A model generated the notes under the pieces. It was not told the origin of the DNA and made no database searches. It saw nothing but the letters and a program-made list of their open reading frames with translations. Source: Candidatus Roizmanbacteria bacterium GW2011_GWC1_37_12 (GTDB lineage: Bacteria > Patescibacteriota > Microgenomatia > UBA1406 > GWC2-37-13). Taken from it: a stretch of 64,000 nt of DNA. Below are positions 316-29,649 of the stretch, piece by piece; the first letter of the stretch is position 1, and the number at the start of each line of letters is the position of its first letter. The stretch spans positions 1 through 64,000 of the forward strand of contig LBST01000002.1 of the NCBI GenBank assembly GCA_000991135.1. Direction: 5' to 3'. Made by a program: the position numbers and the translations under genes.

Positions 316-386
316 TGTCTATAGACTATACGCTACAAAAGTGATGTTTTAGAAAAACAGAACAAGATAATTTCTTCGATATGCCA
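315..386. repeat. Intergenic element copy A (TGTCTATAGACTATACGCTACAAA...TTTCTTCGATATGC)
   Basis: Shares near-identical 5' and 3' blocks at similar spacing with 5016-5087. Confidence 0.6.
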
Positions 387-4148: not shown

Positions 4149-4484
4149 ATGAACTGGTGGAAAATAGCAGGTAAAATACAAATTTTAACTGGCATTATTG
4201 CAATAATATTTTGAACTGTTTCAGGTTCATTTTTCTTAGGAATTGCTAATGGAATTCTAAATATATTAATAGGAATAGCTTTAATAAAAAAAGTTAAAGT
4301 AGTATTTTGGATTACCATTCCTTTAATTCTTTACATGGGATGGAATGTAATTTTTCAAATATCAAATTACACCTCATTTAAAGAAATTAATATATTTCAA
4401 CTTGTTAACTGGACATTAAGCATCGTTGTGTTAATTTCTTATATCATGCTTTGGGAACAAATTAGGAAAGAAAACAAAAAATAA
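4149..4484 (+). pseudogene. Small membrane protein ORF interrupted by an in-frame TGA
   Basis: ATG at 4149 reads MNWWKIAGKIQILTGIIAIIF*TVSGSFFLGIANGILNILIGIALIKK... to TAA at 4482; TGA at 4212-4214. Confidence 0.5.
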
Positions 4485-4516: not shown

Positions 4517-4966
4517 TTAATATTCGATACCATATTGCTCTAGTCTTTCTTTTCTTCTTTTATGATCCCAATATAATTGCCAATGGCCAACTTTTATTCC
4601 CGGTTGAATTATAAAATCAGCTAATAAATTATCGATTGTCTCGAAAACTTTTTCTTTTACGACTTTACCTTTAAAAACTTTTACTAATTTTAATTTCTCA
4701 TTTGTTAAAAAAAGCGAATATTTTGAAACAGTTCCGTTTGATACGTTCAATATCTCACAAATATTCCGTTGAGCTATTCCTTTTAATAAGAGGTATATTA
4801 TCGTAATTCTTTTGGCAAATAAGATCTTTTCTTTGGATGTAAAAAACTCATTCATTATTACAAAAAAATCTTCTCTGTTTCCACCTTTCCTCAACAAATA
4901 AAGAAGTAATTTATAAATTTTATTTAAAAGCTTGTCCGGAAGTCTTTTACGAGAAATATTAACCAT
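4517..4966 (-). CDS. Trp repressor-like (YerC/TrpR-family) transcriptional regulator
   Basis: FFTSKEKILFAKRITIIYLLLKGIAQRNICEILNVSNGTVSKYSLFL resembles the TrpR-like helix-turn-helix region. Confidence 0.75.
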   Translation of the reverse strand: MVNISRKRLPDKLLNKIYKLLLYLLRKGGNREDFFVIMNEFFTSKEKILFAKRITIIYLLLKGIAQRNICEILNVSNGTVSKYSLFLTNEKLKLVKVFKGKVVKEKVFETIDNLLADFIIQPGIKVGHWQLYWDHKRRKERLEQYGIEY

Positions 4967-4970
4967 AATA

Positions 4971-4996
4971 AGTTCAGTTAACTAGTTAACTGAACT
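4971..4996. promoter_or_regulatory. Perfect 26-bp palindrome, probable operator of the TrpR-like gene
   Basis: AGTTCAGTTAACTAGTTAACTGAACT is self-complementary and ends 5 bp from the regulator start codon; contains AACTAGTTAACT as in the E. coli trp operator. Confidence 0.7.
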
Positions 4997-5015
4997 TTAT
5001 CGTAAATATTCTTTC

Positions 5016-5087
5016 TTGTCTATGGACTATACGCTACAAAGCAGTACTTTTGGATTATTGGGACAACTATTTTCTTACGATATGCTG
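5016..5087. repeat. Intergenic element copy B
   Basis: TGTCTATGGACTATACGCTACAAA...TTTCTTACGATATGC, similar to 315-386. Confidence 0.6.
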
Positions 5088-5128
5088 TCTGTAGATTTAG
5101 CTTCAAATGATCTGCTATACTTTCATCT

Positions 5129-6526
5129 ATGAAACTCTACAATACCTTATCTCGAAAAATCGAGGAGTTTAAGCCGATAAATCCATCTTTGGTTACTTTG
5201 TATACCTGCGGACCGACTGTTTACGATTATTCGCATATCGGACACATGCGCGCTTACGTTGTTAATGACCTGCTAAAAAGAACTCTTAAATTTTTAGGAT
5301 ACAAAGTCAAACACGTCATGAATATCACCGATGTTGGACACCTGACAGGCGATGACGACACAGGAGAAGACAAATTGGAAAAAGGAGCTAAGAAAACAAA
5401 AAAAACAGTTTGGGATGTCGTGAAATTTTTTACTGATTATCATTTTAAATCAACCGACGCTTTAAATATTTTAAGGCCGGATATCATTTGTGCAGCAACA
5501 GAGCATATAAAAGAAATGATTGAAATGATAAAAAAATTGACCACCAATGGTTTAACTTATGAAACTAAAGAGGCAGTATATTTTGACGTTTCAAAGTTTC
5601 CAACCTACGGTAAACTTTCTGGCCAATCACTTTCTGAAAAATTAAAAGGCGCTCGTCAAGACGTCTACGTCGATCCGAAGAAAAAAAATAAGGCTGATTT
5701 TGCATTGTGGTTCAAGCGAGTCGGCCGATTTGCCGACCATTCCATGCATTGGCAGTCTCCTTGGGGAGAAGGTTTTCCCGGCTGGCATATCGAATGTAGC
5801 GCTATGAGTATGAAATATTTGGGAGAAAACATTGACATTCATACTGGAGGAATAGACCATATTCCGGTTCATCATGAAAATGAGATTGCTCAATCAGAGG
5901 GAGTGATAGGCAAACAGTTTGTCAACTATTGGTTTCACTACAACTTTCTCATGGTTGATAACCAAAAAATGAGTAAGTCGCTTGGCAATTTTTATACGCT
6001 AGACGATATAAAAAAACACAATATCGATCCTTTGGCTTTGAGATATTTATTCTTACAGTCGCATTACCGTCAGCTTGCTAACTTTACCTGGAAATCGATT
6101 GAAGCCGCTAACGAGGGATTAAATAAATTGCGAGCTATTATCGCTGACTTAAAACCATCCTCAAATGAGTCTTATGAGTCAGATAAATCTCAGTCTTTTA
6201 CACAACGATTTAACGAAGCACTCGCCAACGACTTCCAAATACCACAGGCGTTGGCAGTCGCCTGGGAGATGCTAAAGTCAGATCTTTCATCAAAGAAAAA
6301 ACTTGATCTTTTGTTTGACTTTGATAGAGTTTTCGGCTTAAAACTTGATGTAATCAGCAAAGAAAAAATTCCCGAAGAAATAATTAAATTAGCAGAACAA
6401 CGTAAACTAGCAAGAAAAAATAAAAATTTTTCCAAATCCGATGAACTTAGAAAAAAAATAAACGCTTTAGGATTTTCTATTGAAGATTTAGAAAACAACA
6501 AATTTAAACTAAAAACTCTCAACTAA
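5129..6526 (+). CDS. cysS: Cysteine--tRNA ligase
   Basis: [33 protein letters not shown] motifs. Confidence 0.97.
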
Positions 6527-28914: not shown

Positions 28915-29649
28915 TTATATTTTATCACTTTGATCTAAGAGAAAGCTAGCTTTTATAAAACCAGATACATTCCTTAATCTCTCAACTACAAACTTCCAAT
29001 TGAATTTAATAATATCCTTATGCTTAAAATATAACCTCCACCAATTAACCATGTCCTGCCTCGCCTTAAAATTTCCCATCGTTTTTGTCGTCGTCATGTG
29101 ATTATGAAGAACTTTAGCGTCTTTAACGATCCCCATTTTATATCCGGCTTTTTTAAATCTCAAAAAAAAATCCACATCTTCAAGATAGGCAAAAAATCTC
29201 TCGTCAAATCCTTTCAATTTTTTAAAGACATTAGTTTTTATTAGTAAGCAAGCAGCAGTCAGCCCGTCTAATTCGTAATTCGTAATTCGTAATTCTTTAA
29301 TTAATTTAATCTTTCCATAGGGAAATACTTGATAACCGTAATTTTCAACTTCCCCATTCGGGTTAACCAAAATAGGGGATACTGCATCCAATTTACTTTT
29401 TTCTGCCACTTCGATTAAACGTTTAATCGAAGTATCATCATAGAATTCAATATCATCATTCAATATCAGCATCCACTTTGTCTTGACATCTTTTGCCCCC
29501 TTATTGACGCCTCCAGCAAACCCTAAGTTTTTCTTTTTATTATCAATAATAACGACTTTGTAAGGTTTGTCTTTAAAGTAATTTAATAAGTATTTTAAAC
29601 CTTTTACGTTATTTAAAGTTGGAATAACCACCGTTATCTTCACTTTCAT
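28915..29649 (-). CDS. Glycosyltransferase family 2
   Basis: TVVIPTLNNVKGLKYLL; LILNDDIEF; GFDERFFAYLEDVDFFLR. Confidence 0.93.
   Translation of the reverse strand: MKVKITVVIPTLNNVKGLKYLLNYFKDKPYKVVIIDNKKKNLGFAGGVNKGAKDVKTKWMLILNDDIEFYDDTSIKRLIEVAEKSKLDAVSPILVNPNGEVENYGYQVFPYGKIKLIKELRITNYELDGLTAACLLIKTNVFKKLKGFDERFFAYLEDVDFFLRFKKAGYKMGIVKDAKVLHNHMTTTKTMGNFKARQDMVNWWRLYFKHKDIIKFNWKFVVERLRNVSGFIKASFLLDQSDKI

Follow-up and report, generated by a model that had tools for sequence, protein, structure and literature searches.

The perfect palindrome that abuts a regulator gene in the window (a stretch of 64,000 nucleotides from Candidatus Roizmanbacteria bacterium GW2011_GWC1_37_12) is probably the binding site for a dimer of the adjacent TrpR-fold protein, placed between a promoter-like element and the start codon, where a bound dimer would bring about negative autoregulation. 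The features are listed in Table 1.

Table 1. Features at the regulator locus (window positions)
Feature	Position	Strand	Basis or remark
TrpR-fold regulator (TrpR-L), 149 aa	4517..4966	-	PF01371 score; AlphaFold2/Foldseek
28-bp perfect palindrome AAGTTCAGTTAACTAGTTAACTGAACTT, proposed dimer binding site (self-operator)	4970..4997	.	direct sequence check
Palindrome core CAGTTAACTAGTTAACTG	4975-4992		core kept in G068 ortholog
Promoter-like element GCATATCG...TTTGTAGCGTATAGTCCATAGACA	5016..5088	-	core TTGTAGCGTATAGTC at 5025-5039; putative -10 TATAGT at 5031-5026
cysS (cysteinyl-tRNA synthetase), divergent neighbour; palindrome within its upstream region	5129..6526	+	synteny kept in ortholog

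The palindrome and the adjacent regulator gene

The sequence-only reading had described a self-complementary 26-mer, AGTTCAGTTAACTAGTTAACTGAACT, at positions 4971-4996. This is correct, and the 26-mer is nested inside the longer palindrome of Table 1, which has CTAG at its centre and is separated by 3-4 bp from the ATG of the TrpR-like gene (4966-4964, minus strand). In ~4,000 dinucleotide shuffles across 81 comparable upstream regions no palindrome scored this high, and ~0.0003 sites matching the degenerate 18-mer CAGTTAAYTARTTAACTG are expected by chance in a genome of this size. The genome scan that had been proposed gave only two exact copies of GTTAACTAGTTAAC in the 994,505-base assembly.

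The core of the promoter-like element is present in 16 exact copies in the genome and in none in the reversed control. A version of the element lies upstream of most genes of the family that we term TrpR-L (defined below), with a peak near -54. If TATAGT is taken as the -10 sequence, the palindrome would lie ~20-50 nt downstream of the transcription start. We propose that a dimer of the adjacent TrpR-L protein occupies the palindrome and that, because this lies between the gene's own promoter element and the start codon, the bound dimer would block the early transcript, with negative autoregulation as the likely outcome. The site is conserved in genome G068, whose ortholog is 77% identical and has the same cysS neighbourhood: this gene retains AGTTCA-TTAACTAGTTAACTGA ahead of its ATG and has a second copy, GCAGTTAACTAGTTAAATGC, beyond its stop codon. 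Together with the palindromes that paralogs have at the same place, this makes the autoregulation suggested from the sequence well supported, though unproven.

Residues ~11-105 of the protein are TrpR-like with a helix-turn-helix, and are followed by a C-terminal extension in which PG and W motifs are conserved. The protein scores 25.1 bits against Pfam PF01371 (cut-off 27), a model that its siblings L003 (40.5) and L004 (31.0) pass, and it has no match to TIGR02531 (HisR/YerC). A PDB sequence search with the protein alone gave nothing meaningful. A PDB profile search gave weak TrpR-like matches; designed helical repeats also came up and were judged a false lead. The AlphaFold2 model (built from 33 sequences, mean pLDDT 70) has the TrpR fold, with E. 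coli TrpR as its top PDB matches (Foldseek probability 1.00, TM ~0.7 by target, E-values only 0.02 or weaker), and the extension (~residues 105-149) is of low confidence in it. When the protein was aligned to the E. coli TrpR sequence, Arg54 was kept and Arg84, Gly85 and Ser88 were replaced by Lys, Tyr and Phe. Since these three equivalents are changed, the ligand may differ from that of TrpR.

Two further observations concern this locus. An open frame of ~111 codons at window 4149-4484 (+), starting MNWWKIAGKIQILTG, is broken by one in-frame TGA and may be a pseudogene, a sequencing error or something else. The promoter-like element belongs to a conserved ~75-bp element (TATCG...TTGT...CTAAA...TTTGTAGCGTATAGTCTATAGACA) that is also found at window 324-338 (minus) and at L016-L035 and L214-L243, with the variant TTTTGTAGGTTATAAGCG.TTGAC in relatives. 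It lies mostly ~50-130 nt before genes for ComEA-like, ComM/YifB, Y1 transposase, 23S-IVP four-helix, GIY-YIG and BrnT proteins, and also before most TrpR-L genes and, by sequence look, before RadC, TIR and HigB-like genes. It may be the promoter of a competence/mobile-gene regulon.

The TrpR-L family and its upstream palindromes

We define TrpR-L proteins by a length of 143-149 aa, C-terminal PG and W motifs and the start M-x-x-[ILV]-S. The window protein has all of these, and its gene has the palindrome just upstream of the start codon that is common, although not universal, in the family. Relatives are present in 30 of 73 same-family genomes, often several per genome, and the close named ones carry the label Candidatus Roizmanbacteria (Patescibacteria, Microgenomates) or come under less specific Patescibacteria/bacterium bins. 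A search of genome contigs with the window protein as single query found none; an alignment-based search of the contigs found 33 loci, mostly labelled Candidatus Roizmanbacteria. TrpR-L regulators form a large and unusual set, centred on Roizmanbacteria, in which the TrpR fold is joined to a C-terminal extension. Our literature searches turned up no paper dealing with regulators of the TrpR type in Patescibacteria or Roizmanbacteria.

A palindrome (score at least 8, within the 35 bases before the ATG) is present at 39 of the 81 TrpR-L genes that have enough upstream sequence. Shuffles give such a palindrome at a rate of 0.4%. Among 140 control genes 5 have one, and three of these five sites are of the TrpR type, the window's own among them. 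The commonest centre is -13 (20 of 39). Between subfamilies the operator sequence varies and the position is constant: the left half-site classes include CAGTTAACT, CAGTTAATT, CAATCGATT, CAATTATTT, CAATGTTTT and CATTATATT, within a common architecture in which the half-site is often CA[A/G]Tnnnnn. The centre positions are palindromic as well (67% and 88%), which fits a DNA dyad. This suggests that TrpR-L paralogs carry different palindromic operators of one architecture. Counting against the operator reading, about half of the TrpR-L genes have no strong palindrome before the ATG. A few such palindromes also precede more distant relatives in other families. Operator distance tracks overall protein distance, and co-divergence is significant only at the level of the whole protein; a link specific to the helix-turn-helix was sought and none was found (partial Mantel r 0.07, p 0.16), which also counts against the operator reading.

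There are five TrpR-family genes in this genome, of which two are short (L001 and L002) and three are long TrpR-L genes (the window gene, L003 and L004). L001 (95 aa) is of the YerC type, passes TIGR02531 and is divergent from hutH. L002 (81 aa, contig C6) lies upstream of a TrpB-like gene (PRK12391/TIGR01415 type) and has the palindrome TATACTAGTATACTAGTATA directly upstream. The L003 palindrome, ACTTTAATTAATTAAAGT, has six exact copies in the genome (none in the reversed control), and that of L004, ACTACATTATATTAATATAATGTAGT, has six sites at up to 3 mismatches (control 0). An Rfam search at the five TrpR loci found tRNA alone, with no riboswitch and no T-box. Separately, an L003-type palindrome is found 9 bp upstream of a gene for a fused prephenate dehydrogenase-prephenate dehydratase (contig C7:28779, L039), which suggests a link of this paralog to aromatic amino acids.

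Comparison with TrpR and HisR systems

The sequence-only reading had pointed to operator specificity conserved with E. coli. In the strongest form of this idea, the palindrome would be a conserved E. coli-type trp operator and its binder a TrpR that needs tryptophan. The operator of E. coli, trpO, has been printed as ATCGAACTAGTTAACTAGTACGCAAG (PMC11748629), and it does contain the shared 12-mer AACTAGTTAACT. The 12-mer is in a different register in the two sites, however. CTAG, which had been called the core, is indeed the centre of the palindrome here, but in E. coli it belongs to the flank of a TTAA-centred operator. Against the TrpR consensus TGTAcTnGTnnACnAgTACA (PMC9413887) the window site matches at 8/16 at best in all registers, whereas unrelated sites in the window reach 12/16 by chance and E. 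coli trpO 13/16. The site at L002, a short TrpR gene with a TrpB-like neighbour, reaches 14/16; TACTAGTATACTAGTA has a single exact copy in the genome. Judged by these scores, the trp-type specificity of this genome is at L002 and not at the window gene. In favour of a trp operator are the site of the same class before trpS (below) and the residue aligned with Arg54, which is kept in the window protein and invariant in A2. The protein itself is far from the TrpR equivalog model, however (TIGR01321, 21.3 against a cut-off of 67.25), and the residues at Arg84, Gly85 and Ser88 differ. An E. coli-type operator was rejected as the main explanation on the scores in all registers, and we consider it very unlikely. 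What the system has in common with TrpR and trpO is the fold, the palindromic site, probable autoregulation and the 12-mer; the extension of ~45 residues, the altered ligand pocket and the centre of the site set it apart. With the short TrpR L002 it likewise shares the fold and a palindrome directly upstream of its own gene, but the L002 site is a true trp-type operator.

HisR/YerC, a TrpR-family histidine repressor, has lineage-specific palindromes, and about half of hisR genes are preceded by a candidate site (PMC9413887). TrpR-L resembles it in all three respects: the fold, the lineage-specific palindromes and the fraction of genes with an upstream candidate. Additionally, the palindrome of the sibling gene L003 fits the HisR consensus cacTTTAnnnnnnTAAAgtg. 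In contrast, the window site does not fit this consensus, the window protein is without a match to the HisR/YerC model, and the genome has a separate YerC-like gene.

The CAGTTAAYTARTTAACTG class is represented in this genome at the regulator's own gene, upstream of trpS and in the hutH/yerC leader, the last with one mismatch. This suggests that the window regulator probably governs a small predicted regulon linked to amino acids. The trpS gene (TIGR00233, 274 bits), which is fused to a tRNA-editing domain, is preceded at a distance of 41 bp by CAGTTAATTAATTAACTG. In genome G026, CAGTTAACTAGTTAACTG lies 55 bp before trpS, at roughly the same distance. The presence of the site before trpS in two genomes suggests a link to Trp. 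G026 has eight sites, six with the full 18-mer, including those 20 bp before an EamA-type transporter gene, 7 bp before an aspartate ammonia-lyase/fumarase-type gene and in the leader upstream of a YerC-like gene; the likely binder of these eight sites was sought in ~998 kb of G026 and was not identified. In G030 one palindrome of the window's class is on both sides of a TrpR-L gene.

G000 and G017 have the copy in the hutH leader, and G026 and G027 also show this leader together with the site. The copy sits between the stop of a His-His leader peptide and a terminator, and other relatives have a different A-T hairpin in its place, so it may be an RNA element. This overlap with a probable RNA attenuator hairpin counts against reading the copy as an operator. 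As an observation in its own right, several relatives have, ahead of hutH, a terminator and a short leader peptide that carries a conserved HHxLPxAG-like motif (L147, contig C6; L148-L154), a probable histidine attenuator that has no Rfam match.

Fixed positions, switched sequences and alternative explanations

Comparison of palindromes between this genome (~574 kb covered) and G026 (998 kb) shows that orthologous positions can be occupied by different sequences. At the same codons of queA this genome has ACTTCATTATATTAATATAATGTAGT where G026 has ATTACAATGTTTTAAAACATTGAAAT; across the two genomes the 3' end of cca has TACTACATTCTATTAATAGAATGTAGTA and TTACAGTCTATTAATAGACTGTAA, and the region upstream of tuf has ACTTTAGTTAATTAAAGT and ACTTCGATTAATCGAAGT. 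In each case both halves of the palindrome are altered. In a systematic comparison, seven of the 50 palindromes that could be mapped have a palindrome no more than 40 bp away in the other genome, against ~0.4 expected from shifted positions; two of these matches are between sites downstream of TrpR-L genes, and a third is a hairpin of a different, GC-richer type. Joint change of the two halves at a constant position, in one case inside a coding region, is expected of a dimer binding site. Many sites of the family lie within genes or at their 3' ends, where plain repressors would not usually bind, and this counts against a simple operator reading. Because of these sites, the TrpR-L family may do more than repress promoters.

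Alternatively, the palindromes might represent small repeats of a mobile or REP-like kind, or sites with a general role in chromosome organisation (as for MatP, Noc or ParB), with their proximity to TrpR-L genes having nothing to do with transcriptional autoregulation. Consistent with this, TrpR-L genes are flanked on both sides in G068, G030 and G026, palindromes are found between convergent genes and inside genes, and families reach ~15 copies. A mobile repeat, however, would not keep orthologous positions with both half-sites changing together, as at queA, cca and tuf. The fixed position before the ATG of TrpR-L genes is in keeping with operators, as are the sites that lie 7-55 bp ahead of several starts, and we regard the repeat and organisation explanations as unlikely. 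We think it highly improbable that the palindrome acts as RNA, through a 5' UTR hairpin that masks the start codon or terminates transcription. It abuts the ATG and, lying downstream of the putative -10, is probably transcribed, and the hutH copy is within a leader-peptide attenuator that has a terminator. But a palindromic centre leaves no free loop, stems rich in A-T make weak terminators, and the same class is found upstream of genes, downstream of them and between convergent genes, with related classes inside genes. Binding by a dimer of the adjacent regulator is our preferred reading and a probable one.

Rather doubtful, and offered tentatively, is the wider reading that Roizmanbacteria have a genome-wide code in which several TrpR-L paralogs each read their own palindrome and positions are held while the sequence and the paralog that reads it switch. 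The proteins would then be more than simple repressors and would form natural orthogonal operator-regulator pairs. Transcription control in Patescibacteria is almost unexplored. If the proposals are true, one protein family offers dozens of predicted regulator-operator pairs of differing specificities that are ready for DAP-seq, and a case of operators that alter both halves in step at fixed positions. The evolution of DNA specificity in the TrpR family would then be directly testable.

Finally, other palindromes were seen. A second perfect 26-bp palindrome, ACTTCGATTAAACGTTTAATCGAAGT, lies at window 29408-29433 within a glycosyltransferase-like gene; it is similar to the operator of another TrpR-L gene (L118), and L142 has a similar start, CTTCGATTAAACGTTT. 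Repeated palindromes of 26-28 bp of the type GTAGGGAACAAAAATTTTTGTTCCCTAC occur at L356, L370, L373 and L375 and are possibly REP-like repeats tied to several Y1 transposase genes.
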